A DNA stretch of 64,000 nt, taken from the IMG/VR virus record IMGVR_UViG_3300027396_000022, positions 1 through 64,000 of that record. One strand, written 5' to 3'. The translations under genes were made by a program, and so were the position numbers. This document shows positions 41,972 to 56,877 of this stretch, piece after piece. This DNA is from a virus. The notes under the pieces are model-generated. The model saw only the letters and a program-made list of their open reading frames with translations, did not search any database and was not told the DNA's origin. Each line of letters starts with the position of its first letter. The first letter of the stretch is position 1.

Positions 41972-41973
41972 TC

Positions 41974-42111: not shown

Positions 42112-42142
42112 ATTAGTAAAAAGGTCGGCGGTATGCCTCGCA

Positions 42143-42394: not shown

Positions 42395-42426
42395 CAGCTT
42401 TACACTGAAGGAAACGCGATTCCGCC

Positions 42427-42564
42427 ATGGATCCGACCACTGCTGCTGTCATTGCCATCATCATCGCTGCTGGGTCTGAAATCATCAGCCTGCTGCCGAT
42501 CAAAGAGAACGGGTGGATTCAACTCATTCTTAAGGCGCTTAAGGTGCTATTCCCAAAGCGCTGA
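42427..42564 (+). CDS. Small membrane protein, putative holin
   Basis: A 45-residue protein starting MDPTTAAVIAIIIAAGSEII with one membrane helix and a basic end (LKALKVLFPKR). I know very similar peptides from Synechococcus phages near lysis genes. It may be a holin. A C CCA AAG slippery site lies two codons before its stop, and the -1 frame stays open up to the endolysin. Confidence 0.55.
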   Translation: MDPTTAAVIAIIIAAGSEIISLLPIKENGWIQLILKALKVLFPKR

Positions 42565-42842
42565 AAGCTGACACGGTATGGCTGGCGCGATTTGGCCAGA
42601 AAACTTGGCGTGATCAACTGCGTAAGGCTGCGCAAGATTACAAGTTTGAAAAAACGCTGGGTCCACGGCTAGATCGCGCTGAGGCCGATTGGCATAAGGC
42701 ACAACCACAGGAACCGGCGCCTGTCATCGTGCATGAACTACCCGATCCTGAGCTACAGACTGGTGATAGCCGTTTGCTTGGCGGCGCCATGAGTATTCAC
42801 GCACCTTGGAGCGATGACGCAAAACGCAATCAGGCTGATTGA
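42558..42842 (+). CDS. Start-less frame after the putative holin (possible -1 frameshift product)
   Basis: The -1 frame opens at 42543 and encodes about 94 residues from the slip point, including TVWLARFGQKTWRDQLRKAA and APVIVHELPDPELQTG. It has no ATG, GTG or TTG in its first 60 or so codons. The slippery heptamer C CCA AAG (42552-42558) would fuse it to the holin-like peptide. I see no strong downstream stem-loop, so an unrecognised start or a sequencing error are real alternatives. It overlaps the endolysin start by 29 bases. Confidence 0.35.
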   Translation, partial: ALKADTVWLARFGQKTWRDQLRKAAQDYKFEKTLGPRLDRAEADWHKAQPQEPAPVIVHELPDPELQTGDSRLLGGAMSIHAPWSDDAKRNQAD

Positions 42843-43863
42843 TCTGTTTCGGTATTACAAGGCATTACCGCATCAGATGGCTGCAATTACGGAATTGGAA
42901 TCCGTGATTTCAAAGGCGAATCCGCATATCTTTAGCCGTGATCAGAGCTGGTTCAAAACGTGGAGTCAAAGCGGAAAACAGGAAGACAATGATCTACAGC
43001 CAGCACTGGAGCTGATTAAGAAATTTGAAGGTTCCAGGCTTGAGGCGTATTTATGTCCGGCGAATGTCTGGACAATCGGTTATGGCCACACTGGCCCGAA
43101 CGTAAAGCCTGGGCTGAAGATCACGCAGGCAGATGCAGAGGCGTTATTGCTGTCTGATGTTGAGCGCTTTGCGCGTGCTGTTGATACGTGGATCAAGGTA
43201 AAACTGAGCAATAATCAACGTTGCGCCCTGATTAGTTTTACGTTCAATGTGGGCATTGGTGCGCTGCAGGAAAGCACACTGCGTAAGCGTTTGAACAACG
43301 GCGAGGATGCCGTCAAGGTGGCAATGGAAGAGCTGCCACGGTGGAACAAAGGTGACAGCAAGATCCTTGAGGGTTTGGTGCGGCGTCGCAAGGCAGAGGT
43401 TGATTTGTTTTGCCGTGGCGTGAAGCCTTTGACTGATGATGTGAAGTTAACGCCCAATAAGCCGTTTAGCTTTAAGGTGACGCCACACATTGCCTATGGC
43501 GAGCTGGCATTAAATGAAGAGGCCAGACGTTTTACTAAGCAACATCAGTGCGATACGGCGATTGTTCTGTGTAATTTTCTTGAAAAGGCTCGCGTTGCGT
43601 TTGGCAATAAACCCATTGTGATTACCAGTGGATATAGACCGCCGAAGGTAAATGCATCTGTAGGCGGTGCATCTAGATCGGAACATCTTTACGATGCGCC
43701 TGATACTGGAGCTGTTGATTTTTACATTGAAGGCGTCAATATTTACGATCTTCAGGAATGGTGCAAGGCTCACTGGCCGTTCAGCTTGGGGCTAGGTGCG
43801 CCAAAAGGTTTCGTCCACTGTGGAATCCGCCCCGGTCGGCCTAAAGTCGTTTGGATTTATTGA
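42814..43863 (+). CDS. Endolysin: GH24 lysozyme plus M15 peptidase
   Basis: In this 349-residue protein the first domain (residues about 62-200) is T4/lambda-type lysozyme with Glu72, Cys81 and Thr87 in E-8-C-5-T spacing (FEGSRLEAYL to WTIGYGHT), cutting the glycan strand. The second (about 225-349) is a Peptidase M15_3-like domain with SGYRPPKVNASVGGASRSEH, AVDFYI and the C-terminal FVHCG metal ligand, cutting peptide cross-links. No signal peptide is present, so release depends on a holin. Confidence 0.88.
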   Translation: MTQNAIRLIDLFRYYKALPHQMAAITELESVISKANPHIFSRDQSWFKTWSQSGKQEDNDLQPALELIKKFEGSRLEAYLCPANVWTIGYGHTGPNVKPGLKITQADAEALLLSDVERFARAVDTWIKVKLSNNQRCALISFTFNVGIGALQESTLRKRLNNGEDAVKVAMEELPRWNKGDSKILEGLVRRRKAEVDLFCRGVKPLTDDVKLTPNKPFSFKVTPHIAYGELALNEEARRFTKQHQCDTAIVLCNFLEKARVAFGNKPIVITSGYRPPKVNASVGGASRSEHLYDAPDTGAVDFYIEGVNIYDLQEWCKAHWPFSLGLGAPKGFVHCGIRPGRPKVVWIY

Positions 43864-43869
43864 TGCCTC

Positions 43870-44421
43870 GTGCTGCTGCCTGATTCTGAGATCCGTGCCC
43901 TGTGCCAATCTCACGCTCTGATTCATCCGTTCAATCCTGATCGCCTAAATCCTGCCAGCTATGACGTGGCGCTAGGGGACAACATCATGATTGAGGTGGC
44001 CGAAACCCCCGAGCTGATCAGGCACAGCATTAAGACGCACACCAAGGAGGATCCGTACTGGCTGCAGCCTGGTGAATTCATCCTTGCCGAAACACAGGAG
44101 ATTTTCAACCTGCCTGATAGCCCGGCGATTGCCGCTCAGTTTGTACTGAAATCAAGTCGTGCGCGCTCTGGTATTCAGCATATGTTGGCCGGATTTTGTG
44201 ATCCTGGCTGGCATGGCAGCAGGCTGACACTGGAATTAAAGAATGTGCGGCGAAAGCATCGTGTTGGTGTTTGGCCGGGTTTGCTAATTGGTCAGATGGT
44301 CTTTATGCCACTCAGCGATGACCCTGAAAAGTCTTACGCTGAGGTTGGGCACTACAACCGACACGAAACCGTAATGCCATCTTGGGAAACATTTAAGACT
44401 TTCCCGAGCGTTAATGCTTAG
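43870..44421 (+). CDS. dcd: dCTP deaminase-like protein
   Basis: A 183-residue protein with the dCTP deaminase/dUTPase fold markers: NPASYDVALGDN near residue 28, the catalytic region KSSRARSGIQH, then FCDPGWHGSRLTLELKN with the Glu of LELKN, and GLLIGQMVF. It would turn dCTP into dUTP, or remove dUTP in bifunctional forms, feeding dTMP synthesis. The start is GTG 43870, six bases after the endolysin stop. The gene ends before a strong terminator. Confidence 0.85.
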   Translation: MLLPDSEIRALCQSHALIHPFNPDRLNPASYDVALGDNIMIEVAETPELIRHSIKTHTKEDPYWLQPGEFILAETQEIFNLPDSPAIAAQFVLKSSRARSGIQHMLAGFCDPGWHGSRLTLELKNVRRKHRVGVWPGLLIGQMVFMPLSDDPEKSYAEVGHYNRHETVMPSWETFKTFPSVNA

Positions 44422-44445
44422 CCTGTAAAAGGAGAGATGGGGATC

Positions 44446-44477
44446 ACCGCTCAGTGCCAAGGCTGGGCGGTTTTTTA
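44446..44477. terminator. Rho-independent terminator ending the lysis operon
   Basis: ACCGC-CAG pairs with CTG-GCGGT across a short loop and is followed by TTTTTTATT. It lies between the rightward deaminase gene and a leftward small gene. Confidence 0.8.
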
Positions 44478-44481
44478 TTGC

Positions 44482-44652
44482 CTAATGATCTGGCCCTTGT
44501 TGACGCCTTAGAAAGCAAGGCACATCAGGATCCTGCAGCATATGCAGGCTGAACTCATCGGCATAACGATCAGCGCACCATTTCTGAGCGCCGCCTACGG
44601 TGCGGAATGGTCCGACTCGTGTTCCGTCAGGAAGCTTGACGTAATAAGTCAT
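44482..44652 (-). CDS. Hypothetical 56-residue protein
   Basis: A leftward ATG frame encodes MTYYVKLPDGTRVGPFRTVG, then AQKWCADRYADEFSLHM. The start resembles small YYVxLPDGTxxGPF proteins found in phages and bacteria, a short beta sheet followed by a helix. It converges on the lysis operon across a shared terminator. Function is unknown. Confidence 0.5.
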   Translation of the reverse strand: MTYYVKLPDGTRVGPFRTVGGAQKWCADRYADEFSLHMLQDPDVPCFLRRQQGPDH

Positions 44653-44696
44653 TTTCGTTGTAGTAGCTACCGTTTAGAGAACCAAGCGGTCGCCTG

Positions 44697-45008
44697 GTGG
44701 TTGAACACATTGACGGTACAGAGCTTGTACGCAAGCACGAAGCAAAACGCCGTTTCCGTGATCAGATCCTGTTGCATTTCAATTATCACTGCGCTTATTG
44801 CTTTGAGCCGTTAGGGCGTTCCCCAACACTTGATCATGTAATCCCAAAAATCAAGGGCGGCACCAGTGCAATGAATAATTTGGTTGCCTGTTGTTTTGGG
44901 TGCAATATGTCAAAAGGACATAAGGACTGGCGAGTTTGGTACAGAAATCTGCCGTTTTGGTCGGAGATTGGGGAGGCAAGAATTATGGATTGGATTAACA
45001 GGGATTAA
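44697..45008 (+). CDS. HNH endonuclease, small form
   Basis: This 103-residue protein has a compact HNH fold: CAYC knuckle, then LDHVIPKIKGG with the catalytic His, NNLVACCFGCN with the second CxxC and MSKG. It matches the short bacterial/phage McrA-like HNH type. The start is probably GTG 44697, since the frame is closed upstream at 44666. It is a lone rightward gene overlapping a leftward gene by four bases, as expected for a mobile gene. Confidence 0.75.
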   Translation: MVEHIDGTELVRKHEAKRRFRDQILLHFNYHCAYCFEPLGRSPTLDHVIPKIKGGTSAMNNLVACCFGCNMSKGHKDWRVWYRNLPFWSEIGEARIMDWINRD

Positions 45009-45178
45009 GGGCAAGTCATCTGATGAAGATAAATTTCAGCTTGCCAGAGATCAGAGGTATAACGACAAACTCCTTTGTAACAAGTGCGGTAATACATTTC
45101 TCCACCTTCCGCAGGTTCTAGAACTTCGATGTAACTACCGTCTTCAAAATCAGTCCGGCTCAAAATTGTCGGTTCCAT
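45005..45178 (-). CDS. Hypothetical 57-residue protein
   Basis: Starts at MEPTILSRTDFEDGSYIEVL and has a beta hairpin core with two Cys (MYYRTCYKGVCRY). It overlaps the end of the upstream gene by 29 bases. It is the last gene of the leftward early region. No family is recognised. Confidence 0.45.
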   Translation of the reverse strand: MEPTILSRTDFEDGSYIEVLEPAEGGEMYYRTCYKGVCRYTSDLWQAEIYLHQMTCP

Positions 45179-45530
45179 CGTTGTACAGGCTGCATTGATT
45201 AGCAAAACGACCGTTCGGGAAGCTCTTGGCCTCAGGAAAACCAAGCGAGCAGCCGTTTCCTCCATTGTGGGTCAGGGTTGGTGCCCATTGAATGCAATCC
45301 CAGCAACGAAGGCCTGTAGGTTCAGGATCTTCTAATGGTTCAAGCTTTTCACCGGCTCTGAAGGCTTGATAAATGTTGTTGGCCCGCACAAAGGCAAGCC
45401 GTAATTCTTTGGTGTGAAGATCCACCTCTACCTGTTGCTCTGGCCGTGGGCCAAGGCGTATACGACAGCGCCAGTTCTCAAACAGCTTGTGCCGTTCAAG
45501 GATCAGTCTGTTATTGAAGAGGTGGATCAC
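45150..45530 (-). CDS. Small Cys-motif protein (CxxC...GFPEA...C family)
   Basis: The 126-residue protein has an N-terminal half with WRCRIRLGPRPEQQVEV and a C-terminal metal-site-like module: CWDCIQWAP, then GCSLGFPEAKSF, then QCSLYND. The same C-S-x-GFPEA...C module occurs in 46336-46683. Function is unknown; a zinc-binding role is plausible. Confidence 0.55.
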   Translation of the reverse strand: MIHLFNNRLILERHKLFENWRCRIRLGPRPEQQVEVDLHTKELRLAFVRANNIYQAFRAGEKLEPLEDPEPTGLRCWDCIQWAPTLTHNGGNGCSLGFPEAKSFPNGRFANQCSLYNDGTDNFEPD

Positions 45531-45532
45531 GA

Positions 45533-45766
45533 TCAGTCTTCCTCGCCGTAGGAAGGCATATGGAAGAGGCGTTCAAGGTTGAAATGATCCGGTGGCATTT
45601 CATCTGGCGCCTGGCCTTCACGGAACGGATCGTTTAGATCACGCACGATGTAGGTAACAGGTGTGTGGCGCAGACGGATTTGAATGGTTCCGACCCGAGG
45701 GCTTTTGGCCAGCACTCTGAAACACCAGTTTTCAAAGCGATTAAGGAAAGGAACTTTGATGGCCAT
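45533..45766 (-). CDS. Hypothetical 77-residue protein
   Basis: It begins MAIKVPFLNRFENWCFRVL, comparable in pattern to the start of the next gene downstream (FENWRCRIRL), so the two may be related. The C-terminus is acidic. It ends two bases before the next start. No known domain. Confidence 0.45.
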   Translation of the reverse strand: MAIKVPFLNRFENWCFRVLAKSPRVGTIQIRLRHTPVTYIVRDLNDPFREGQAPDEMPPDHFNLERLFHMPSYGEED

Positions 45767-45768
45767 GT

Positions 45769-46035
45769 TCAGGGTTTTGGCGGAACCAAATACGTTGTTA
45801 GAAGGGTGATAGCAACATCAGCGTACCGATTAGCCAGCTCGCTGTCAGTACCACCAACAGCACGGATGAGATCAGAACGGAAAACGTTGTAATCAAGGTC
45901 ACGTAGGTTGCTGGCGACTTCACGAGAAAATTCATCCCAAAGGCCGGTGTAAAGCTGATCGTTGCGGCCTTTGCGTTGGTAAATCATGTCCATGAAATCA
46001 GCACGGCGTTGGTCAAGTTCAATGGCGGTCAGCAT
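45769..46035 (-). CDS. Hypothetical 88-residue protein
   Basis: Starts MLTAIELDQRRADFMDMIYQ and is helical throughout (LWDEFSREVASNLRDLDYNV). A longer frame upstream overlaps the gene at 46019-46216, so I prefer the Met at 46035. The overlap with that gene is then 17 bases. No family is recognised. Confidence 0.5.
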   Translation of the reverse strand: MLTAIELDQRRADFMDMIYQRKGRNDQLYTGLWDEFSREVASNLRDLDYNVFRSDLIRAVGGTDSELANRYADVAITLLTTYLVPPKP

Positions 46036-46216
46036 AGTTTTTAGCGATTGCAAGGGCTTGGGAACGGGTATCGCAGAGCGGGCCGTACCAGACTGAATTG
46101 CCATCCCAGCACCAAGGCTGAAAGGCAGACATGACACCGTAACCAACCCAATCAGCTCCATAGCAGTGATGCCGTGGACTGTCATATCGGTTGGCTTCCG
46201 CTTTGATCGGTGCCAT
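46019..46216 (-). CDS. Hypothetical 65-residue protein
   Basis: An aromatic-rich small protein: YDSPRHHCYGADWVGYGVMS, then FQPWCWDGNSVWYGPLCDTR, ending with a helix QALAIAKNYADRH. It contains three Cys and four Trp, which suggests a small compact fold. It overlaps both neighbours. No known domain. Confidence 0.5.
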   Translation of the reverse strand: MAPIKAEANRYDSPRHHCYGADWVGYGVMSAFQPWCWDGNSVWYGPLCDTRSQALAIAKNYADRH

Positions 46217-46397
46217 TGGCTATTGGGCAGTTTGCCGTTTGATAGCGAATAAACGGCTGAAGCGCAGCGTACATACGAACACAGTCGTCAATCGTGTGAT
46301 TGTTGAACCGTGGCGCCCAGTATTCAGCAAGGCATTCAATCAGTACAGCTTGGATTTCGCTGGTAGAGGTGACAGGCTGCTGCGAAGGATGGTTCAT
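46182..46397 (-). CDS. Hypothetical 71-residue protein
   Basis: A soluble helical protein (SEIQAVLIECLAEYWAPRF, then DDCVRMYAALQPFI). It overlaps the downstream gene by 35 bases and the upstream HTH gene by 62 bases. No family is recognised. Confidence 0.45.
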   Translation of the reverse strand: MNHPSQQPVTSTSEIQAVLIECLAEYWAPRFNNHTIDDCVRMYAALQPFIRYQTANCPIANGTDQSGSQPI

Positions 46398-46683
46398 CTA
46401 TGGCCTCGGGGAAGCCGTAGGAACATTCACCGTGACGAAATTCCGCACAGTTTGTACAGAGTTTGGCGCGGGCGACGTAATCACGGCGGACTGATTCTTT
46501 GACGCGGACTGGAATACGTGGAATTTTAGGGGCAATGTCTGTCCATGATTTTCCGTTGCGTATTAAGGAAATCGCCTGCCGAGTTACATCTAATTGATCA
46601 GCCAGCTCTTGATTGGTTTGAGTTGACTGCAGGATGTAAATGATCTTGGCAGGCGTGAGCTTTGTTTTATTGGTACGCGCCAT
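46336..46683 (-). CDS. HTH DNA-binding protein with Cys module
   Basis: A 115-residue protein. Residues about 8-50 form a helix-turn-helix (LTPAKIIYILQ, then QELADQLDVTRQAISLIRNG and KSWTDI), close in pattern to the one in 47660-48007. Residues about 75-110 carry CTNCAEFRHGECSYGFPEAI and ACHLYQ, the Cys module also found in 45150-45530. It is probably a small regulator that needs a metal. Confidence 0.6.
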   Translation of the reverse strand: MARTNKTKLTPAKIIYILQSTQTNQELADQLDVTRQAISLIRNGKSWTDIAPKIPRIPVRVKESVRRDYVARAKLCTNCAEFRHGECSYGFPEAIDEPSFAAACHLYQRNPSCTD

Positions 46684-46864
46684 TGAGTGTGGGTAGTTTT
46701 ACCTCACTGTGCTTGTCGGGTGTGATCCAGCGAAGGTCGTTATAGACCGGTCCCCATGTTTCAAAGGCGAGTTGTTTGGCTTCAGGAAAGCCACAGGCCA
46801 CCACCCAGTCGTAGACGTTGATGGATGGAATGGTGAAATAAAAACGACGTGGTTGTGGTTGCAT
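46667..46864 (-). CDS. Hypothetical 65-residue protein
   Basis: Starts MQPQPRRFYFTIPSINVYDW and contains VACGFPEAKQLAFETWGP, a partial match to the GFPEA motif of two nearby proteins but with one Cys. It overlaps the HTH gene by 17 bases. Function is unknown. Confidence 0.45.
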   Translation of the reverse strand: MQPQPRRFYFTIPSINVYDWVVACGFPEAKQLAFETWGPVYNDLRWITPDKHSEVKLPTLNGAYQ

Positions 46865-46866
46865 GA

Positions 46867-47166
46867 TCAGCGGGTTTCGATGGGTCGTTTGGAGAGGTAA
46901 AGCTGTGAGACTTGATAAGTTGCGCCTGTGGCAAAGCTTTGAACGAGGTAAGTGGGCCATGAGCAGCCTTCTACCTTGCTGATGACTGTTGCTTCAACCT
47001 GAGGCCAGCCACGGACATAGCAAGGCATTCCGGGATAGAAACGCCACAGGTCACGCTCAACTCTGACGCCGCGTGCATTGGGCGACATTTTGTAGACCTT
47101 TTGACCGGTTGGGATGACAGGTGCCACCATGCCGGAGCACTGAGCAGTGAGAACAACGAGGCTCAT
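46867..47166 (-). CDS. Hypothetical 99-residue protein
   Basis: A beta-rich small protein (RVERDLWRFYPGMPCYVRGW, then VEATVISKVEGCSWPTYLV). The strand-turn pattern and the start KVYKMSPN suggest a small SH3-like fold. Its start overlaps the upstream stop by four bases. No family is recognised. Confidence 0.45.
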   Translation of the reverse strand: MSLVVLTAQCSGMVAPVIPTGQKVYKMSPNARGVRVERDLWRFYPGMPCYVRGWPQVEATVISKVEGCSWPTYLVQSFATGATYQVSQLYLSKRPIETR

Positions 47167-47300
47167 TTTGTGGTGGTGTAGACGGCGTGTTGAGTACCGC
47201 TGTGGTGAGCGGTTTTAAGAGTTAGGCCATCGTGAATGATGGCGCCGAAGATAAGGCCAGGGATCAGGATTTGCAGGATCCCGCAGAGGCAATTTTTCAT
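47163..47300 (-). CDS. Small membrane or hydrophobic peptide, 45 residues
   Basis: The ATG at 47300 opens MKNCLCGILQILIPGLIFGA, one hydrophobic segment, followed by a polar His/Thr-rich tail. A longer frame reaches 47387 but would overlap the promoter at 47369-47397. It is the first gene after that promoter. Function is unknown. Confidence 0.45.
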   Translation of the reverse strand: MKNCLCGILQILIPGLIFGAIIHDGLTLKTAHHSGTQHAVYTTTK

Positions 47301-47368
47301 GGTGTGGTGTGGGTTGTCGGTTGGCCGGATCGCTCCGGTTGGGTGAATGGTAGCGACTATTCGGGCGG

Positions 47369-47397
47369 AGTAAACCCCTAAATTCATGGTGTTGCAA
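47369..47397 (-). promoter_or_regulatory. Leftward promoter with shared TTTAGGGG-TTTACTC element
   Basis: On the minus strand TTGCAA (-35), a 17-base spacer ending TTTAGGGG, and TTTACT (-10). The spacer end and -10 match promoters at 49233 and 51285. It would drive the run of small genes from 47300 leftward. Confidence 0.5.
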
Positions 47398-47447
47398 TTC
47401 GTTACCTTGCCCCGTGTCTACCGTGAATGTGATATGCACTTCAAACC

Positions 47448-47675
47448 ATGGACAACGAAGCCTGGCGGTGGATGCAACTCAAGCCAGATGCCACTAGCGC
47501 CTTTCAAGTCGAAAAAGAAGCCCGGCGCCTAGAGAACACCCCAAACGCCGGGCCTATTGCTGCTCAGTTGTATCGCGCTTGGTCTATGCAGCAGACCTTG
47601 CTACAGCAGGCCACCAACCGTATTGCAGCTTTAGAGCTGCAGTTGATGAAGACAGGCAATCAGGCAGACACCTGA
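47448..47675 (+). CDS. Hypothetical 75-residue protein
   Basis: A helical protein (AFQVEKEARRLENTPNAGPI, then LLQQATNRIAALELQLM), the only rightward gene inside the leftward early region. It diverges from the gene at 47300 and overlaps the convergent HTH gene by 16 bases. The coiled-coil C-terminus suggests oligomerisation. No family is recognised. Confidence 0.5.
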   Translation: MDNEAWRWMQLKPDATSAFQVEKEARRLENTPNAGPIAAQLYRAWSMQQTLLQQATNRIAALELQLMKTGNQADT

Positions 47676-48007
47676 ACATCCTTCCACGTCTTGCCGTATT
47701 TGATCAGGTTGACTGTGGTGACATGTACGCCGTAATCGTTGGCGATCTTTTGCGCTGATTCATTGCCAGCAGCAAGACGGCGTTTGATTTCAGCCACCTT
47801 GTCAGGATTTAGGGCTCCGCGCTTGCGCTTGGCCTTACGACGCTTGCTAGTCAGGGCGGTTGGCTGATCGTGCTCGGTTACAGCTTTGGGCTGTGCGGCG
47901 CCGCCAGCTTTGATGACCTGCGCTGATTCGATCAACCGTTGGATCTGGCCAATGCGGTTGTTCAGTTCGACGACTTGAGAATCGGTAAGGATGATCATGG
48001 AATCCAT
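47660..48007 (-). CDS. HTH DNA-binding protein
   Basis: In this 115-residue protein a coiled N-terminal part (DSQVVELNNRIGQIQRLIES) and a Lys/Arg-rich linker precede a helix-turn-helix (LNPDKVAEIKRRLAAGNESA to VHVTTVNLIKYGKTWKDV). The HTH is similar to that of 46336-46683 and to HTH repeats attached to homing endonucleases. A regulatory role is likely. Confidence 0.6.
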   Translation of the reverse strand: MDSMIILTDSQVVELNNRIGQIQRLIESAQVIKAGGAAQPKAVTEHDQPTALTSKRRKAKRKRGALNPDKVAEIKRRLAAGNESAQKIANDYGVHVTTVNLIKYGKTWKDVQVSA

Positions 48008-48288
48008 CAGAAGAGATCGGTTTGGGCTTTGGGACGATATTCGCTGATTGCCATTTTTAGGTATTCACGACCGGATTGTTCGGCTGTGCGAGGCATCAGG
48101 CTGGCGCGAATTTTTACACACGATTCGCCGCGTTGGTTTTGCACTGGATTTTGCTTGAGTGCCCAGTTGTAAAGCTTCTCAAGTTGATCCACTGGGATTT
48201 CAGCGATTGACCAGTAATTACCTGGCTTATCTTCGCTGGGCATACAGTTGAACCACAGTGTGAATTCGTTTTGCGGGTAATCAGCCAT
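48007..48288 (-). CDS. Hypothetical 93-residue protein
   Basis: A small alpha/beta protein (EFTLWFNCMPSEDKPGNYWS, then ESCVKIRASLMPRTAEQSG). It overlaps the neighbours by one and eight bases within the recombination gene cluster. Its size and strand pattern would suit a small OB-like accessory protein, but no motif proves it. Confidence 0.45.
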   Translation of the reverse strand: MADYPQNEFTLWFNCMPSEDKPGNYWSIAEIPVDQLEKLYNWALKQNPVQNQRGESCVKIRASLMPRTAEQSGREYLKMAISEYRPKAQTDLF

Positions 48289-48463
48289 TGTTTGTAAGGA
48301 AGCTTGAGATGATGTGACGCAAGGCTTGATTGATGTTCTGACCTGATTTGGCGCAGTACACCTTCAGTTGCCGGTAGGTATCAGGCGGAAGTTTGGCCGC
48401 AACGATGGTGCGGTTTTTTCTCCGATTGATTTCCTCTTGTGTTTTGGGCCGTCGCCCTGTCAT
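48281..48463 (-). CDS. Ribbon-helix-helix (Arc/CopG-like) regulator
   Basis: A 60-residue protein with a basic start (GRRPKTQEEINRRKNRTI), a beta strand VAAKLPPDTY and two helices (RQLKVYCAKSG, NINQALRHIISSFL). This is the standard RHH layout, so a dimeric DNA-binding repressor is likely. It overlaps both neighbours by a few bases. Confidence 0.65.
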   Translation of the reverse strand: MTGRRPKTQEEINRRKNRTIVAAKLPPDTYRQLKVYCAKSGQNINQALRHIISSFLTNNG

Positions 48464-49176
48464 GCGGGATTGTCAGCGATGTACTTGGCAATGAACTCCT
48501 TATGTTCAGGGAACTGGATGCGGTCAGCGATACGCGGCGCCATGATCTTGAACTGCTTTTTGAAGGCAGTAATCAGATCATCACGTTTTTCGTAACCCTT
48601 GACCCAACCCTTGATTTCCTCAACCTCTTCATCGGTCAGAAAAACGACCTTTGATTCAGCCTTGGATTCGGTCTTGGTCTTTGCCTTGGGTTGAGTGTCC
48701 TGCACTTGGGACGGTTGCGCCTTGGGCGTGTCCTGCTGCAGGGCTGGCTTGGTCGGTTCTTCGCGGTGCGGGTTTTCTATGGCTTCCCGTGCCCAGAGTT
48801 GCCATGCAAGGCCGAATTGCGCGGCTGCAGCAGTACAGAGGCAACGCCGATGAGCATCAGTGAGATCACGGGCAGTGACCTTTTCAAACGCGATGGCGTT
48901 GTTGCGGTTATCCATGATCGCCTGCGGGAATGGCGGCGTATCGGATCCGTTGACGTGTTCAAAACACCCGACCACATAAGCGGTTCCGTCGGGAGACTTC
49001 CAGACATGGCCGGTTTCTGGGTGAGCCTTGAGCGCAAACTGCCAGCCAGGCGCATGATCATGGAGTAGGTGGGCAACACGGCACCAGTTGACGTAATCAG
49101 CGGCGTAGGAGCCGGTTCCTTTGGTTGATACGTCTTGCTGCGTAATGATGCCCCCAAGATTGGGGTAATCGGTCAT
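48460..49176 (-). CDS. Single-strand annealing protein (DUF1071-like)
   Basis: A 238-residue protein. The first 130 residues match DUF1071: DYVNWCRVAHLLHDHAPGW, FPQAIMDNRNNAIAFE, then LTDAHRRCLCTAAAAQFGLA. These are ERF/Sak-type recombinases that anneal single strands during phage recombination. A Lys/Gln-rich linker follows, and a C-terminal helical domain (EVEEIKGWVKGYEKRDDLI). A leftward promoter lies just upstream. The RusA and exonuclease-like genes nearby complete a recombination set. Confidence 0.65.
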   Translation of the reverse strand: MTDYPNLGGIITQQDVSTKGTGSYAADYVNWCRVAHLLHDHAPGWQFALKAHPETGHVWKSPDGTAYVVGCFEHVNGSDTPPFPQAIMDNRNNAIAFEKVTARDLTDAHRRCLCTAAAAQFGLAWQLWAREAIENPHREEPTKPALQQDTPKAQPSQVQDTQPKAKTKTESKAESKVVFLTDEEVEEIKGWVKGYEKRDDLITAFKKQFKIMAPRIADRIQFPEHKEFIAKYIADNPA

Positions 49177-49232
49177 AGGGATTGCGCGGGTTGTGTGGTG
49201 ATCGGTTGAGGACGGGCTTCGGACCCATCAAG

Positions 49233-49261
49233 AGTATACCCTTAAATGCAAGGGCTGTCTA
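49233..49261 (-). promoter_or_regulatory. Leftward promoter with shared TTTAAGGG-TATACTC element
   Basis: On the minus strand TAGACA (-35), 17 bases ending TTTAAGGG, then TATACT (-10) and TCTTG. It lies 57 bases before the annealing-protein gene. Confidence 0.65.
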
Positions 49262-50002
49262 GATCCTTTCAAATCTGTATCCGGCAGTCTTATGTCCTTT
49301 GTCAACCGCCCGCGCAATGCACTGCCTTACAACAAATACATCACGAGCAGCGGCTCCCATGCTTGGGTAGATCTTGCCAGTTTCAATACAGCGCACACGT
49401 TTTTGTTTCCATTGCCGATCCGGTCGTTTCGGGTACTTCCGCAAGATTTCCTTTGCCCATCGTGAATCTTCTAGCAACATCTGAAGGCCAACCTCATTAG
49501 CCCCGCCAAGACGTGAAGGATGATGGCGTGCAAAATCCTTGAACATCTTGGTCGTTACATAATTAAACGTTTTCCTTTTGCTGTCGCGTCGGTATGTTTC
49601 AAGTGGATAATCCTTAAGACGCTTCCAACCCGCAATGGTGTCTCTGGATAGCCCAAGCATCTGGCCAAGTTTCATAAATGTATAAAACTCAACTGTTGGC
49701 CGGTTGGAATAGCCAAGCGTTCTAAGTTTTTTATCTATTGCGTGTTTGCTGCGATCAGGTAGCCCATTAACACGTGCCCATAAATTAAACGAACGAACAA
49801 GCCGTGACAGCGGCATCGTATTGACGTGATCAATTAGCCAATCTGTTTCTTCCTGCGTCCATAGCCGGACCCGTGTTCGTGGCTTATTGGCGCAGCTACT
49901 ACTGCAGGTTTTTCGCGTTGACGGCCTGCCATTACGCAGGATTTTGATGTCAAATGCAGTGCCGCAAATCTTGCAAATGCGGACGTATTTTGATGCGTTC
50001 AC
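49259..50002 (-). CDS. Zinc-finger protein with NUMOD1-like C-terminus, no nuclease domain
   Basis: In this 247-residue protein the N-terminus has CKICGTAFD and CSSSCANKP, forming a Cys4 finger. A middle helical part follows, with QEETDWLIDHVNTMPLSRLV and LGLSRDTIAGWKRL, which look like two HTH units. The end RCIETGKIYPSMGAAARDVF resembles the NUMOD1 DNA-binding module of homing endonucleases. No HNH or GIY-YIG core is seen. It is probably a regulator derived from a homing enzyme. Its start overlaps rusA by four bases. Confidence 0.6.
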   Translation of the reverse strand: MNASKYVRICKICGTAFDIKILRNGRPSTRKTCSSSCANKPRTRVRLWTQEETDWLIDHVNTMPLSRLVRSFNLWARVNGLPDRSKHAIDKKLRTLGYSNRPTVEFYTFMKLGQMLGLSRDTIAGWKRLKDYPLETYRRDSKRKTFNYVTTKMFKDFARHHPSRLGGANEVGLQMLLEDSRWAKEILRKYPKRPDRQWKQKRVRCIETGKIYPSMGAAARDVFVVRQCIARAVDKGHKTAGYRFERI

Positions 50003-50427
50003 AGTTTGTTAAGAGTGATCAGGGCTCCTGGTAATTCGCCTTCGTTGGCGTACTGTTTTGTGGCTATCAACGTCACGACCTGTGAATCGTCTTTGATCAA
50101 CACATTTGTAATCCCGTCCAAAGTTGAGCGGCAAAGCTTATCAAGATCAGGTTTAGTGAACTTGTAAAACGGCGCCTTAGGCTTGATTTCGCCTTTGCTG
50201 TTGTAATGCGCTTTTGGGCGGCTGAACAGAAAGGTAATCAATACGCTGACAGGTTCATCAATCAATGCCTCGCCGGTTTCAAGCGCTGCCTGGCTGACGG
50301 CAAAACGCCATGGCTTGACCTTCTTTGATGCTTCTACCATGCGGCCATTGCCAACATGTCGCTTGCTGCCCTGAGGCGCTGGCTCAATGCCCTGAACGGC
50401 AAACTTCATTTCGTATGCGTCAGACAA
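49999..50427 (-). CDS. rusA: RusA-family Holliday junction resolvase
   Basis: A 142-residue protein with the RusA pattern: LITFLFSRPKAHYNSKG, then TKPDLDKLCRSTLDGI with the metal-binding Asp residues, LIKDDSQVVTLIATKQY and a final PGALITL. It cleaves four-way junctions made during phage recombination or replication. The gene upstream overlaps its start by 22 bases. Confidence 0.88.
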   Translation of the reverse strand: MSDAYEMKFAVQGIEPAPQGSKRHVGNGRMVEASKKVKPWRFAVSQAALETGEALIDEPVSVLITFLFSRPKAHYNSKGEIKPKAPFYKFTKPDLDKLCRSTLDGITNVLIKDDSQVVTLIATKQYANEGELPGALITLNKL

Positions 50428-50543
50428 CGATTCAGGTGTTCAACTGGCGTGCTCAGTGTGATGCCTTGAACGTCAGGGCGCATGGATAGCAACCAAAACA
50501 GAAACCGCGTCTGCCAAGTCAGGTTGTAAGGGTTGTCAATCAT
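50406..50543 (-). CDS. Hypothetical 45-residue protein
   Basis: A leftward ATG frame encodes MIDNPYNLTWQTRFLFWLLS, then MRPDVQGITLSTPVEHL. It overlaps the start of rusA by 22 bases and the upstream gene by eight, so it is embedded in a coupled operon. It is hydrophobic in the first half but not clearly membrane-spanning. Function is unknown. Confidence 0.45.
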   Translation of the reverse strand: MIDNPYNLTWQTRFLFWLLSMRPDVQGITLSTPVEHLNRCLTHTK

Positions 50544-50742
50544 TCGATTGCATCAAACAATTTTCAAGATGTTTTTTTTGTGGAATGGACTGGTAGTACA
50601 GACTTTTGCGTTCGTCTTTCGGGTCAACGGTCAGCAGGTACTGCACCAGCTCTGCCACGGCGTTTGTGTATTGCTCTGGATCCCATAGGTCGTACTTGGC
50701 CAAGATGGCTTCAATGCGGTCGTCTACGGGAGAGCCAGCCAT
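50536..50742 (-). CDS. Hypothetical 68-residue protein
   Basis: The ATG at 50742 overlaps the upstream TGA (TGATG). The protein is helical and acidic (DDRIEAILAKYDLWDPEQYT, then NAVAELVQYLLTV). No domain is recognised. Confidence 0.5.
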   Translation of the reverse strand: MAGSPVDDRIEAILAKYDLWDPEQYTNAVAELVQYLLTVDPKDERKSLYYQSIPQKKHLENCLMQSND

Positions 50743-51050
50743 CAGAACTCTGCCTTTGGCAGCGTCACTCTCCAATATTCTGTTTCGCGCTTGGTGGCGA
50801 CGCCTTCAAACTGCTCTAGCTGCTGCAGTTCCTTGACGGCATTGCTGTATTGCCAACTCGTGCGCGTGCAGCGGGATACCTTGATGCCGTGAAGGGCAAG
50901 GTTGCCTTCGTCATCTTTGATGTCGTCTAGGTCGCCTGCGGTGTACATCAGGGCAAGGTCATCCATGAGGCGATCAAGGATTTCCTGATGACGGGCGATT
51001 TCTTTTTTGGTGCTGGCGATGACGCCGAGCAGGGTGTTGGGGTTGGTCAT
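50742..51050 (-). CDS. Hypothetical 102-residue protein
   Basis: The first half is a coiled helix (GVIASTKKEIARHQEILDRL), followed by GNLALHGIKVSRCTRTSWQY, which suggests a small beta region. Such short proteins are common in phage early regions. It follows a leftward terminator and precedes a coupled gene. Confidence 0.5.
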   Translation of the reverse strand: MTNPNTLLGVIASTKKEIARHQEILDRLMDDLALMYTAGDLDDIKDDEGNLALHGIKVSRCTRTSWQYSNAVKELQQLEQFEGVATKRETEYWRVTLPKAEF

Positions 51051-51052
51051 GG

Positions 51053-51077
51053 TGAAGAAAAGGCCCCATACGGGGCC
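51053..51077 (-). terminator. Leftward rho-independent terminator
   Basis: On the minus strand GGCCCC-GTAT-GGGGCC is followed by TTTTCTTC. It separates the membrane peptide gene from the downstream recombination genes, so these may depend on readthrough. Confidence 0.65.
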
Positions 51078-51083
51078 ACGAGA

Positions 51084-51248
51084 TCAGAACAGGAGGCCGA
51101 GGCAGAAGCTCACGGCTGCAATCCAAAGAGCAACAGTGATCTGTTCTTTTGATTCGTTCACCTGTTGTTCAAGGGTTGAAGTGGTGTCGGCTTGCTGCTG
51201 TAGCAGGTCGATTAACTGCGCCTTGGTGGTACGGGTCAGGTTGGTCAT
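51084..51248 (-). CDS. Small membrane protein, 54 residues
   Basis: A leftward ATG frame encodes MTNLTRTTKAQLIDLLQQQA, a polar coiled helix (TLEQQVNESKEQI) and a C-terminal membrane helix (TVALWIAAVSFCLGLLF). It is the first gene after the strong promoter at 51285-51313. The layout resembles small phage tail-anchored proteins. Function is unknown. Confidence 0.55.
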   Translation of the reverse strand: MTNLTRTTKAQLIDLLQQQADTTSTLEQQVNESKEQITVALWIAAVSFCLGLLF

Positions 51249-51284
51249 GGCGTTTCGTGTCGTGGTGGCATCGCTGCCATAGGG

Positions 51285-51313
51285 AGTATACCCCTAAACA
51301 GAGGCCGTGGCAA
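51285..51313 (-). promoter_or_regulatory. Leftward promoter with shared TTTAGGGG-TATACTC element
   Basis: On the minus strand TTGCCA (-35), a 17-base spacer ending TTTAGGGG, then TATACT (-10) and CCC. This is the best sigma70 match in the early region. Confidence 0.65.
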
Positions 51314-51319
51314 CCCGCC

Positions 51320-52000
51320 TCAAAACTCCGGTTGGTTCAGCATCAGGAACGCATCACGGGCGCCCTGCCACTCGATCACCGCCTCGTCAACGTCCACCTT
51401 TTGCAACGTCGTACTGCCAGGTCGGCTCCACAGCACCCCAGCCTTCTGCACATACAGCTTCGGCCAGTGCAGGCTCAGCATTCCCAAGTACCCGCCCAAC
51501 TGTGGGCTCACGTCATACGGGCTGGCATCGGCCTTGCCCTGCGTTTTCAAATCCACCAGCACAAGCTGTTCGTAATCATCCTTACGCCGCAGCAGGCAAT
51601 CGAAGCTGCCCGCAATGTTGCGTTCTAAATCCGCCAACCGATATTCACAGGCCACTGCCTCATACGTATTCCAAACGGAATGTTCAAGCAGCGGCTCAAC
51701 CCATTCGCTGTAGTCAGCCGGATACACCCCTGGCTCACCAGTCGTCAGAAAGTTTTCCAACGCCAAATGAACTGCCTTCCCACGCGGTTCCCAAATGTGT
51801 TTGGTCTCCATAATCCGTTTCATCGCCCACGCATCCTTCGTGCCCTTGCACACCTGCGTTACTGAATGATTCAGCCACTGACCCGTGGGCTGCCATTGGT
51901 AGCGGTGCGCTTCCTCGTTGAACAGGATCGGCAGCGGCGGTAACCACCGGGAAGTCTCTTGGATCTGTGATTTGGACTCGTTCGGCTGGTGTGGGCTCAT
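51320..52000 (-). CDS. PD-(D/E)XK exonuclease (RecB/Cas4-like)
   Basis: A protein of about 226 residues from ATG 52000; an earlier ATG at 52054 adds 18. It shows the RecB-family order: RGKAVHLALENFL (His), IAGSFDCLLRR (Asp), LVLVDLKTQG (D-x-K) and SPQLGGYLGM (Gln). It would resect double-strand ends to give single strands for the DUF1071-like annealing protein. The upstream gene overlaps its first 266 bases in another frame. Confidence 0.8.
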   Translation of the reverse strand: MSPHQPNESKSQIQETSRWLPPLPILFNEEAHRYQWQPTGQWLNHSVTQVCKGTKDAWAMKRIMETKHIWEPRGKAVHLALENFLTTGEPGVYPADYSEWVEPLLEHSVWNTYEAVACEYRLADLERNIAGSFDCLLRRKDDYEQLVLVDLKTQGKADASPYDVSPQLGGYLGMLSLHWPKLYVQKAGVLWSRPGSTTLQKVDVDEAVIEWQGARDAFLMLNQPEF

Positions 52001-52175
52001 CTCTGAGGGGATTACGGAAGACGGGCGGTGTAAAACCGGGAATGCGTTTGGCATCCTCCATTGTGATGACCCAGCCGCGTGATGGCACGTCTAGGTCTTG
52101 CAAGGTCCAATGTCCGGCTTCAATGCCACGTCTAAGCAGACGGCAAACCTCGGCGGCATCAAATGCTGGTTTCAT
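51735..52175 (-). CDS. Hypothetical protein overlapping the exonuclease gene
   Basis: Its start at 52175 overlaps the KilA-N stop as ATGA, so translation is probably coupled. The first 60 residues look coding (MKPAFDAAEVCRLLRRGIEA, then SRGWVITMEDAKRIPGFTPP). The rest lies over the exonuclease coding region in another frame and looks less protein-like. Either the gene is truly overlapping, or a shift into the exonuclease frame occurs near 51950-52000. Confidence 0.4.
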   Translation of the reverse strand: MKPAFDAAEVCRLLRRGIEAGHWTLQDLDVPSRGWVITMEDAKRIPGFTPPVFRNPLRDEPTPAERVQITDPRDFPVVTAAADPVQRGSAPLPMAAHGSVAESFSNAGVQGHEGCVGDETDYGDQTHLGTAWEGSSFGVGKLSDDW

Positions 52176-53104
52176 GCCTCGCTTGGTTTGAATTGTTGAC
52201 ACTCAGCAAGCAACTTTGCAGCCATATCAGGCCGCAACAGACCCATCTCCCTAGCTGAATAAACGATCAAATCCCAGTCATAGGCGACATAACAAGCAAT
52301 CGGAACATTCTTTCCGGTTTTGGTCGGAAACAGCAACGGAAATCCACGGCTATGGCGTTTTTCGCTCAAATATCCGTTGCTGTATTCAGGATCTTTGTCG
52401 TAACGGAGTCTGTAAGCCGCCTTGGTTCGTTTGCCTAATTCTGCTTCACGATTGGTGACTAACTTTGTAAGATTTGAATCGTTAAGTTGCAGGAAAAACT
52501 CGGTTACGCCAATGGGTATTTCAGGGTCAACAACGACACCCATAAAACGCGGCAGTTTGTCTAATGGCGAGAGAACCGATGACGTACCGGGCAGCATTCC
52601 GGTTGCCGATTGAACCGCAACAGATTTAAGAAGCAAAAGATCGCGCTTAAGCTCAATCTCCATGCGGGCATCAATAAGTCCCGGCGTATGTGTTGCGATC
52701 ATTTGATGTATGTCGCAAACAATCTTTGCGGCGGTTCCAATAGTTTCTATTGGACTTAAAGCCAGTGGTTGATTGTCTTGCGCCAGTGATTTGCGTTCAA
52801 GTTCTTCCAAAAACCATTTATCCATCCACACGGCAAATGGTGCATTTATCCAACGCGCCAAATCAACAGCTACTTGAGGATGAATCCATGTCTCGTTGCC
52901 ATGGCGTACCTGCACAAGTTGAGAGATGGGAATCTGCGTCTCTTCAAAAAGCGCTTCCGCGTATTCGCCAGCGCGATCAGTCCGCCAGTAATCGGCCCAT
53001 CGTTTGTCGTTGGCTTTGCACATCGCAGTTGCGTTGACAAAACCGTCTGTAGTGCGACGGGCAATGGGCGTGCCATTCCAGGCACGAGTGACCAAATCGG
53101 GCAT
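52172..53104 (-). CDS. KilA-N domain protein (antirepressor-like)
   Basis: A 310-residue protein from ATG 53104. The KilA-N DNA-binding domain occupies residues about 6-105: NGTPIARRTTDGFVNATAMC, KRWADYWRTD, then IHPQVAVDLARWINAPFAVW. The C-terminal half is a helical domain (ETIGTAAKIVCDIHQM, then a Rha-like end). Such proteins act as antirepressors or regulators in temperate phages. The frame stays open upstream to a TTG at 53185, but a 13-bp repeat lies in that extension. Confidence 0.75.
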   Translation of the reverse strand: MPDLVTRAWNGTPIARRTTDGFVNATAMCKANDKRWADYWRTDRAGEYAEALFEETQIPISQLVQVRHGNETWIHPQVAVDLARWINAPFAVWMDKWFLEELERKSLAQDNQPLALSPIETIGTAAKIVCDIHQMIATHTPGLIDARMEIELKRDLLLLKSVAVQSATGMLPGTSSVLSPLDKLPRFMGVVVDPEIPIGVTEFFLQLNDSNLTKLVTNREAELGKRTKAAYRLRYDKDPEYSNGYLSEKRHSRGFPLLFPTKTGKNVPIACYVAYDWDLIVYSAREMGLLRPDMAAKLLAECQQFKPSEA

Positions 53105-53131
53105 TTTTTTTGGGTGTAGACCCGATTCCTT

Positions 53132-53290
53132 GCTAGGGGGACCGGGATTTGGGGTGACGATAGAAGGTTTTGGGCGCTTTCGCAAGCCTTTGAATCCGAA
53201 GCCGGAGATAATTGCACTCAGTTGTGACTAGGTGCGTCAGCTTGCGCCAACGGGTGACAGCGAGTTAAGATTGTGTCGCTAGGGGGACCG
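53132..53290. repeat. 13-bp direct repeat pair upstream of the KilA-N gene
   Basis: GCTAGGGGGACCG occurs at 53132-53144 and again at 53278-53290, on either side of the intergenic space before the KilA-N gene. Two copies with a 146-base period in a control region suggest an operator. Confidence 0.5.
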
Positions 53291-53337
53291 CAAGGTCTTT
53301 GAAGGGGCGGGGCTTACGGGCTCTGCCCTTTCTGCTT

Positions 53338-53625
53338 TTAAATCTCCCTCCATAGCCGCTGCGTATCTGCCTTGTCTCGTTCTGACGCGGCCATGGGATG
53401 CAGGACGTAACGCGCTGCTAGCGGGCTCTTGGGGTCATCAGCGCCCACGTTCGGGCAGAAGGTCATGTACAAGCCCTGATCGTCGTACTTGCCCATCGGG
53501 TGCCCGTAGCAGGCATCAGGCGGTGCTGTGCGGGTCGTGGTGACGCTGTAGCTGACCTGCTTGGTCTTGGCATCAGCGGTCTGCCAGACGTACTTGCCCT
53601 TGTTTTCTGGTGCGTACAGTTTCAT
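53338..53625 (-). CDS. Hypothetical 95-residue protein
   Basis: From ATG 53625 the protein reads MKLYAPENKGKYVWQTADAK, with later CYGHPMGKYDDQGLYMTFCP. The two Cys and many Tyr suggest a small beta fold. It lies 32 bases after the replication-like gene on the same strand. No family is recognised. Confidence 0.5.
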   Translation of the reverse strand: MKLYAPENKGKYVWQTADAKTKQVSYSVTTTRTAPPDACYGHPMGKYDDQGLYMTFCPNVGADDPKSPLAARYVLHPMAASERDKADTQRLWREI

Positions 53626-53657
53626 GGTGAGTCTCAAATGAGCAATAAAAGGCAGGA

Positions 53658-54326
53658 TCAGTCGTCGTAAACCCAGCAGCGGTTTTCCTCGTCCCAATAT
53701 TTCCCGCCGCTCTGACGCTTGTGCTCTTCGAGATACACCTCGTATTTGCCATCACGAAGCCAGCGAAACAGGTCAGGAAGGCTGCCAACAAACTCCCCAA
53801 CGGTCTTTCTGCGCTTTTGCTCAGCAATGGCATTGTTGACCGCTCCAAGCAATCGTTCTTCGCCCTCGGCCTTCACCACCTTTTTCCATTCCTCAAACGC
53901 CTTCGGCTTGGACTGGGATGAGACTCGATCAGGTGCCGACTGATAGGTTTTCCACAGGAGCGCAAAGCCTTCGGAATACTCAACCTTTGCCGATTTTGCA
54001 ACCTTTTTATTGCCTATTTCTTTTTTTGTGTCCAATTCTTTTGGCAAGAAAGCCAAATCCAAACAGCCATCTGAACCAACAGCCGAAACAGCCTTCCCTT
54101 CGCTGGAAGGTTGCTGAGGCGTAGATTCTTGAACCTGCTTCGGTTGGGAGTTACCTAGAGGTGGTGTCCCCGCACCGACACGGTACGCGGGTAGCTTAGC
54201 CTCCCTGTCAATACCCACCTCTAGTAAAAAGGCGCAAAAGGTAGTCAGGGACAGGGTTCTCGGGCGAAAACGCTCCAAGTCTTCGACCAAATCGTCGGGT
54301 AATCGCAGGAAAATGGCCTTTGGCAT
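53658..54326 (-). CDS. Replication-associated protein candidate (RHH-like N-terminus, DnaT/loader-like C-terminus)
   Basis: A 222-residue protein. The start (PKAIFLRLPDDLVEDLERF) looks like a ribbon-helix-helix strand and helix. A long Gln/Ser/Lys linker follows. The C-terminal part has FALLWKTYQSAPDRVSSQSK, PKAFEEWKKVV, and FVGSLPDLFRWLRDGKYEVY, matching the W-x-xY...W pattern of replication loader proteins. It is the first gene of the leftward early region, divergent from the terminase operon. Confidence 0.5.
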   Translation of the reverse strand: MPKAIFLRLPDDLVEDLERFRPRTLSLTTFCAFLLEVGIDREAKLPAYRVGAGTPPLGNSQPKQVQESTPQQPSSEGKAVSAVGSDGCLDLAFLPKELDTKKEIGNKKVAKSAKVEYSEGFALLWKTYQSAPDRVSSQSKPKAFEEWKKVVKAEGEERLLGAVNNAIAEQKRRKTVGEFVGSLPDLFRWLRDGKYEVYLEEHKRQSGGKYWDEENRCWVYDD

Positions 54327-54522
54327 TGCTTGCTGATTTTTGCTTGGTGCAACGAAAGCTTGCAAAGACTAGCCACGGTTTTCAGGCTGGCAAGTGCCCT
54401 CCGGCACACTTCCAAAAATCTTCAGGATCGCTTTTCCACAGCCTTGTCTGTCTCGTTCGCGTCTCATCCGCGCCATTCTCTCCTTTTGGGTTTATCCTTA
54501 TTTCATCGCTTTTATTTCAACC

Positions 54523-54840
54523 TTGGCGCGTTCTACCGCCGCTGAAGTCAACTTCCGTATTGACACCGTTTACGGTCTTCTGACCGAAGGAAAATCGCGT
54601 GGTCAGATTGTTCAGTTCGGCGCAGAACAGTGGAATGTAGATATTCGTCAAGTCGATAACTACATCAAACGCGCACGAATCCGCCTAGAAGAAGACGCCG
54701 CCATGACCCGGCCTTCATGGATTGCCGAAGCCCTAGGCCGTCTTCGTACCTACGAACAATCCGCCTACAAGCGCGGCCAAACGCAAGTCGCCCTGAATTC
54801 GGTCCAACTCCAAGCCAAACTGATCGGCCTTGAAATTTGA
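54523..54840 (+). CDS. terS: Terminase small subunit candidate
   Basis: A 105-residue helical protein. With TTG 54523 as start it reads MARSTAAEVNFRIDTVYGLL, then a HTH-like GKSRGQIVQFGAEQWNVDIR and RPSWIAEALGRLRTYEQSAY. DNA-recognition by an N-terminal HTH is usual for small terminases. It is the first rightward gene before the HNH and large terminase genes. There is no ATG in a suitable place. Confidence 0.65.
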   Translation: MARSTAAEVNFRIDTVYGLLTEGKSRGQIVQFGAEQWNVDIRQVDNYIKRARIRLEEDAAMTRPSWIAEALGRLRTYEQSAYKRGQTQVALNSVQLQAKLIGLEI

Positions 54841-54893
54841 GCCTGCTCGCCCCTAGCTTTGCCTTTCGCTCCGTCACGGGCTACTATAAAGGA

Positions 54894-55472
54894 ATGGCGA
54901 AGCTTACGACCGCGCAGTTCGTTGAACGCGCAAAGGCCGCCCATGGCGACCGCTTTGATTATTGCTGTTCTGATTACCAAGGCGCACTCACCAAAATCGC
55001 CATCATTTGCCCTTTTCACGGGTTGTTCATGCAATTGCCTACAAATCACTGGCGCGGAGCGGGCTGCAAGGAGTGTCGAAAAACAAGCAGCCCAGAAATT
55101 CGTCGCGCCAATGCAGCCAAAAGGCAAGCAAAATTGCGTGAGCGCCAGCGGCATACGCCTGAATACAAAATTGCCAATTTTTCCCGTGTTCGCCTTTACA
55201 AGGCTTTGTCTTCGCAGGGCATAAGAAAAAATTGTCGCACTGCCGATTGGCTTGGCTGTTCACCTGCCGAACTTCGTGATTACATTGCTGCCAAGTTTGA
55301 GGATGGTATGACTTGGGATAATTTTGGGCAATGGGAGGTTGACCACATTCGCCCTTGCGCCAGCTTTGATCTAACCGATCCCGTACAACGACTTGCTTGT
55401 TTTCATTTCACAAACCTTCAACCACTTTGGAGAAACGATAATCGCCGCAAAAGCGCCAAGATGCTGGAATGA
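54894..55472 (+). CDS. HNH endonuclease between terminase subunits
   Basis: A 192-residue protein from ATG 54894, with AAAGGA just upstream. The N-terminal part has repeats of the kind FVERAKAAHGDRFDYCCSDY with ICPFHG and CKECRK. The C-terminus is an HNH core: WEVDHIRPCASFDL, HFTNLQPLWRNDNRRKSAK. It overlaps the large terminase start by four bases. HNH enzymes beside terminases can help packaging; the N-terminal repeat type also fits a homing enzyme. Confidence 0.8.
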   Translation: MAKLTTAQFVERAKAAHGDRFDYCCSDYQGALTKIAIICPFHGLFMQLPTNHWRGAGCKECRKTSSPEIRRANAAKRQAKLRERQRHTPEYKIANFSRVRLYKALSSQGIRKNCRTADWLGCSPAELRDYIAAKFEDGMTWDNFGQWEVDHIRPCASFDLTDPVQRLACFHFTNLQPLWRNDNRRKSAKMLE

Positions 55473-56800: not shown

Positions 56801-56811
56801 TGGGGTATACT
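56801..56811 (+). promoter_or_regulatory. Rightward extended -10 element of the shared motif
   Basis: TGGGGTATACT followed by CTCG matches the core of the three leftward promoters. TTGACC at 56791-56796 is too close to be its -35. It may be an extended -10 promoter for the genes from 56878, or an operator. Confidence 0.35.
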
Positions 56812-56877
56812 CTCGATATCTACCGCTACCCTTGAATCGTTCCCGCTCTGCCTTGGCATCGGGCTGCGCTTTTTCTC

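Follow-up and report, generated by a model that had tools for sequence, protein, structure and literature searches.

A putative repressor operator shared by early and cargo promoters in a clade of cyanobacterial siphoviruses

We analysed a stretch of 64,000 nucleotides (the window), the first part of a 78,772-base record of a freshwater cyanobacterial virus (IMGVR_UViG_3300027396_000022), focusing on a short block shared by three leftward promoters in its module-2 part (40416-64000). Our analysis suggests, with a probability of about 0.72, that this block, GGGGTATAC(C/T)CC, serves as operator for a repressor that this cyanosiphovirus clade encodes and that would occlude RNA polymerase at both early and cargo promoters. 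Directly observed are the sites with their conservation and promoter context, the absence of the word from hosts and the co-occurrence of candidate regulators.

The three leftward promoters, P1, P2 and P3 (Table 1), carry the same words, as had been claimed in an earlier note made from this sequence. The spacers end in TTTAGGGG (P1 and P3) or TTTAAGGG (P2), each -10 box is followed by C, and GGGGTWTACTC is common to the three (51285, 49233 and 47369), its first base being A at 49233. The search of the full record that the note had proposed, carried out with TTTARGGGTWTACTC and up to two mismatches, gave three matches in 78,772 bases, all exact, all on the minus strand and all at P1-P3, and none with reversed-pattern controls. 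Within 40416-64000 this long form was found three times and never in shuffles, [AG]GGGTWTACTC was found four times where 400 dinucleotide shuffles gave 0.015 on average, and the core matches expected from shuffles were 0.01-0.02 for 3-4 observed. Additionally, in an unsupervised count of repeated 12-mers containing a -10-like word in L004, a locus of the same phage, AGGGGTATACTC came out on top. The shared spacer end, -10 and C stand as the note had worded them, but TTTA is confined to the three early sites, and the core common to other sites is GGGGTATACYC(C).

To follow the block among relatives, 80 loci were collected through the single-strand annealing protein (SSAP) encoded after P2, from metagenomic records that are mostly fragments. 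Forty are operator loci (at least 69% identity; L042 and L052 are partial), in which site 2 was present in 40/40, site 1 in 39/39 covering loci and site 3 in 27/34, there always as GTTTAC. The other 40 loci (51-76% SSAP identity, the higher values over short matches) had no such sites except one two-mismatch match in L073, and in the 23 of these where the region upstream of the SSAP was inspected by eye coding DNA seems to run up to the gene without a gap for a promoter. Among the distinct sequences of sites 1 (30) and 2 (25) the core reached about 2 bits at most positions, four of the six -35 positions had 0.5-0.7 bits, and the upstream spacer also varied. The alignment was anchored by a search with at most one mismatch, which introduced no selection at sites 1 and 2 because every covering locus had both. 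At site 3 (17 distinct sequences) the flanks are well conserved too, so it is the weaker conservation argument. Furthermore, the wider core gave 74 matches in 18 phage records, against 4 for the reversed pattern (palindromes count on both strands), and occurred in 18/18 records. The closest named phages by SSAP were 14 Synechococcus or Prochlorococcus cyanophage records, all below 60% identity.

The block is not a host feature. In 61 host-family genomes, from the family of a cyanobacterial metagenome-assembled genome holding an SSAP relative, GGGGTATACYCC occurred at two places, each in DNA that looks coding and shows no promoter (by eye), and its reversed control occurred at four. The motif being common across the host genome, which the earlier note had named as counting against a phage regulator, was therefore not what we found, and a host regulon was discarded, since these two chance places do not make the motif common at picocyanobacterial host promoters.

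An indication of its role comes from a second arrangement, found in many relatives between terL and the portal gene and oriented towards the latter. There a perfect palindrome, GGGGTATACCCC, fills the 18-bp spacer of TTGNCA-N18-CATAAT, so that an inverted repeat lies inside the core promoter, in 21 distinct sequences (one with a single A); an IMG/VR scan with 19 exact bases recovered 56 stretches, a specificity that suits finding new small phage genes of unknown function for host-defence tests. In these cassettes CATAAT holds the -10 place and the block lies in the spacer; because the 12-mer is not the -10 here, it is better taken as an operator than as a promoter element. The suggestion that the block exceeds what sigma70 needs was borne out; the block is also phage-specific, and its place as a palindrome inside the promoter spacer of relatives fits a regulator's operator. 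The leader is nearly constant, mostly GGGGGCGACCCCACCACACACAAGACC, followed by ATG. Behind the palindrome we found 16 BLAST clusters of small genes (by a first-open reading frame (ORF) rule, leaving out the site 2 row, where the wrong ORF had been picked; loci of one contig may count twice). Two clusters also occur after site 1 in other phages, one of them being the family of the window gene at 51084-51248, a homolog of which is the cargo of a palindrome cassette in L040. PADLOC, which covers defence systems and not anti-CRISPRs, gave no convincing match for five cassette proteins, with one candidate-model match at E=0.03. The unit might be a portable plug-in cassette of picocyanobacterial siphoviruses, composed of promoter, palindromic operator and GNRA leader, that puts many unrelated small genes (likely for host takeover or anti-defence) under the phage early regulator, an idea that we regard as rather doubtful; if true, the cassette sequence could act as bait for anti-defence genes.

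The near-identity of the palindrome leader across contigs, together with cargo genes found in more than one cassette position, would also be expected if the likeness arose by repeated insertion of one promoter cassette of recent common origin, with no binding protein involved. At the early sites, however, the -35, spacer and leader have drifted apart around 12 bp that stayed fixed, and the TTTAC variant of site 3 is retained throughout the clade, which makes this explanation very improbable.

A phage-modified or phage-encoded RNA polymerase or sigma factor reading the block as an extended promoter element would account for its coincidence with the -10 at sites 1-3, and annotations of the cousins KBS-S-2A, S-CBS1 and S-CBS3 include a sigma factor (Pfam Sigma70_r2 at 2.7e-17 in KBS-S-2A). 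Yet neither Sigma70_r2 nor a KBS-type sigma was detected in any of 19 motif records in searches that recovered KBS-S-2A and S-CBS1 as positive controls, the sigma-bearing cousins lack the block, and the position of the block in the palindrome cassettes speaks against it as well. A k-mer count of repeated -10-like words in KBS-S-2A, S-CBS3 and S-CBS1 showed none as prominent as in the control L004, and the words that emerged were not followed further. A phage sigma was rejected for the records searched, and we consider this explanation as a whole quite unlikely. If the operator reading is right, this cyanosiphovirus clade, represented by dozens of IMG/VR contigs, shares one repressor word between its recombination operon and swappable small genes, where its cousins carry a sigma factor.

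Activation instead of repression was also considered. Some -35 boxes are poor (TAGACA, TTGCAA), as would be expected of activated promoters, and so is the context of a further copy of the core. This copy, GGGGTATACTCT, had been described as lying rightward before the late genes; it is present just after terL (core at 56802-56812), but a late-gene promoter there is not supported in this phage, in which the copy lacks both a -35 at 17 bp and a leader hairpin, and the same spot in L010, L018, L022 and L040 carries TTGACA-N17-TATACT and a hairpin. Against activation, the usual position of an activator is at or above the -35, a protein overlapping the -10 or a normal 18-bp spacer would block polymerase, and some sites in relatives have TTGACA-N17. 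An activator therefore seems slightly less probable again than the sigma explanation.

Returning to a repressor, its candidate binders are the DNA-binding proteins nearby. In tblastn searches of the 40 operator loci, the putative ribbon-helix-helix (RHH) protein of the P2 operon was found in 38 (the two others end before the gene), the helix-turn-helix (HTH) protein of the same operon, HTH-a, in 36, and the HTH protein of the P3 operon, HTH-b, in 32; a comparison of the two sets of loci, counting RHH in 37 and HTH-a in 36 of the operator loci, found none of the three in the 40 operator-free loci, some of which are short. IMG/VR profile scans gave 38 RHH, 37 HTH-a and 39 HTH-b loci, and the operator was present in 37/37 rescanned RHH loci as well as in the 38th, L037. 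Omega_Repress was matched by 24/24 RHH members (best 3e-5), the member in the window being below the curated cut-off, and among PDB sequences the RHH profile matched SvtR best, at a weak E=1e-4. No RHH relative was found in 300 host-family genomes, in a search without a positive control. The HTH of HTH-a was modelled at a predicted local distance difference test (pLDDT) score of about 88. These data make the RHH protein the most likely putative binder, at somewhat less than even odds, and HTH-a a tentative runner-up. HTH-b, suggested earlier, is weakened because three of its matches, with 36-37% identity, come from phages without an exact copy of the operator. A KilA-N protein (52172-53185), also suggested, was dropped, its homologs occurring in 3/40 loci only.

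At the early promoters the operator would be laid over the -10, where one base breaks its symmetry (T for C) because the -10 TATACT needs T; at the cargo promoters of relatives it would be the perfect palindrome filling the spacer. Host RNA polymerase would transcribe these units first, a regulator from the P2 operon, itself under the same operator, would accumulate, and it would then occlude the core promoters and so shut down early and cargo expression jointly. A protein on an operator over the -10 or in the spacer keeps polymerase out. The same polymerase-blocking argument is made for Aca (anti-CRISPR-associated) proteins in PMC9410906. Binding, repression, timing and the identity of the binder are all proposed here from sequence. 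A tyrosine integrase (40543-41397, minus strand) is present in only 5/19 records; an early shut-off is therefore likelier than a lysogeny switch, and an operator serving lysogenic immunity only was rejected, as the sites occur in 18/18 relatives.

A first, looser pattern with three mismatches gave a weak excess (6 against 3.4 expected) and 44000-60000 contained 5 sigma70-like matches, no more than shuffles did (10.7), so the evidence is not the promoter score but the core and its conservation. Several observations weigh against this proposal. In seven related loci (L016-L020, L024 and L029) site 3, about 1.8 kb after the SSAP start, was lost and replaced by operator-free sequence, with the gene kept. 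Site 1 has better symmetry than sites 2 and 3 (AGGG or GGGA; TTTAC), which may therefore be weak operators. The Pfam RHH matches of the protein in the window are below curated cut-offs, and its AlphaFold 2 (AF2) monomer model is poor (pLDDT 68, no strand). In addition, co-occurrence cannot separate RHH from HTH-a, as both belong to the P2 operon, and within the clade it is partly shared descent, which alone would give much of it.

Table 1. Features of the early region and their positions in the window
Feature	Position	Strand	Remarks
P1, TTGCCA-17-TATACT	51313..51285	minus	-35 TTGCCA 51313..51308; -10 TATACT 51290..51285
P2, TAGACA-17-TATACT	49261..49233	minus	-35 TAGACA 49261..49256
P3, TTGCAA-17-TTTACT	47397..47369	minus	-35 TTGCAA 47397..47392; -10 TTTACT
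Site 1, putative operator GGGGTATACTCC	51283..51294	minus	over -10 of P1
Site 2, putative operator AGGGTATACTCT	49231..49242	minus	over -10 of P2
Site 3, GGGGTTTACTCC	47367..47378	minus	over -10 (TTTACT) of P3
Rightward copy after terL	56802..56813	plus	operator word without canonical promoter in this phage
P1 leader hairpin	51266..51279	minus	5' leader; TGGCA-GCGA-TGCCA, GNRA loop
P2 leader hairpin	49214..49226	minus	weak; GGGT..GCCC, loop not GNRA; read from sequence
P3 leader hairpin	47325..47338	minus	CCGGA-GCGA-TCCGG
54-amino-acid gene	51084..51248	minus	first after P1
Sak-like SSAP	48460..49176	minus	first after P2; Pfam SSAP_Sak 4e-07, phrog_659
RHH protein	48281..48463	minus	P2 operon; 60 amino acids; profile against SvtR (2kel) E=1e-4
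HTH-a	47660..48007	minus	P2 operon; basic linker; HTH_7 2.6e-4, below cut-off
Terminator-like hairpin	47518..47555	minus	with T-run; between P2 operon and P3
45-amino-acid gene	47163..47300	minus	first after P3
HTH-b	46336..46683	minus	P3 operon; weaker candidate

A small 5' hairpin opens most of these units, and its loop is often GNRA. Counting stems of at least 4 pairs with loops of 4 bases, a GNRA loop was found in 24/24 distinct palindrome leaders (0.18 in shuffles), in 11/11 distinct site 3 leaders (0.04) and in 20/61 of the TATACT class (0.20), the 61 including a few chance matches (L158, L164, L173). Lambda-type nut sites likewise have a GNRA-like boxB hairpin in the leader, but here the loop is constant only in the first two classes. 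Many site-1 leaders have a 3-pair stem, GCA-GNGA-TGC, and site 2 hairpins have other loops, that of P2 being better paired in relatives (e.g. AGGGC-CGGA-GCCCT). Stems vary on both sides across relatives, as in CCGGA/TCCGG and CCGAG/CTCGG at site 3, and no Rfam family matched within 46000-58000. Operator and hairpin are separable, because the seven loci from which site 3 was lost still have the hairpin. The simplest guess is that the hairpin is a 5' stabiliser or a translation leader.

Other features of the region were also recorded. A 75-amino-acid ORF on the plus strand (47448-47675) lies in the leftward early block and overlaps the P2-operon terminator. It is more conserved than most genes (35/40 loci, 77-100% identity), occurs also in 8 operator-free loci, is weakly matched in S-CBS1 and KBS-S-2A, and belongs to no Pfam family. 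The gene at 49259-50002 (minus strand), between RusA and P2, is far more divergent than its neighbours (28-33% in many loci) and has a weak Myb-like match. The terL gene (55469-56794) comes in two types, about 90% or about 30% identical to that of the window, which swap among otherwise like phages. A locus from a 38,343-base IMG/VR contig is identical to 40416-59176, and a further compared stretch, reaching to 14 bases before the record end, had no differences in 18,758 bases; the right part of the window is one phage. The left part (1-8000) resembles S-CBS4 (72% over 47%), the right part being of another phage type. An exact repeat of 38899-39025 forms the last 127 bases of the 78.8-kb record (region 38893-39025; 18640-18772 in locus L087). 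The record has the appearance of two cyanophages fused at a tail-region stretch that they share, and the right-hand phage would form a circle of about 39.7 kb.

Lastly, literature on cyanophage promoters and operators yielded no report of this site, the motif words occurring only in unrelated papers, and the accessible part of PMC6157547 holds none either. Known systems offer several likenesses. P22 Arc and Mnt, plasmid Omega and lambda CI and Cro act through multiple related operators over early promoters, with affinity varying with sequence; the arrangement here is alike in its related operators over early promoters, but the operator words are others and we recognised no divergent repressor gene. 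Lambdoid morons are small accessory genes with their own promoter between conserved genes, as are the cargo genes here, which differ in that all share their operator with the early operons. Aca2 reportedly exerts dual DNA and RNA control of acrIF8 through a promoter inverted repeat and a leader hairpin in one unit, a combination also present here. In the palindrome cassettes the operator (GGGG-TATA-CCCC) and the hairpin (GGGG-GCGA-CCCC) have the same arms, which might let a single regulator recognise DNA as well as RNA; unlike Aca2, however, only these cassettes have like arms in both, other stems being different, and dual binding is only a guess.

The closest parallel for the cargo promoters is offered by Aca repressors on acr-aca promoters, where, according to PMC9410906, a conserved inverted repeat lies in the core promoter, consistent with exclusion of RNA polymerase, with small exchangeable accessory genes behind. 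In contrast to that system, the candidate regulators here lie in the P2 and P3 operons and not in the cargo cassette, which opens with other small ORFs. Moreover, a single operator word is used at several early and cargo promoters, an RHH rather than an HTH protein is the leading candidate, and no cargo is a known anti-CRISPR. In this regard, the RHH candidate recalls, though weakly, the small archaeal virus RHH proteins described in PMC5569661, where SvtR is a repressor of its own promoter with three other binding sites in the virus genome and AvtR has eight potential sites, whereas the sites described here are short 12-bp palindromes over the -10 or the spacer of bacterial sigma70-type promoters.

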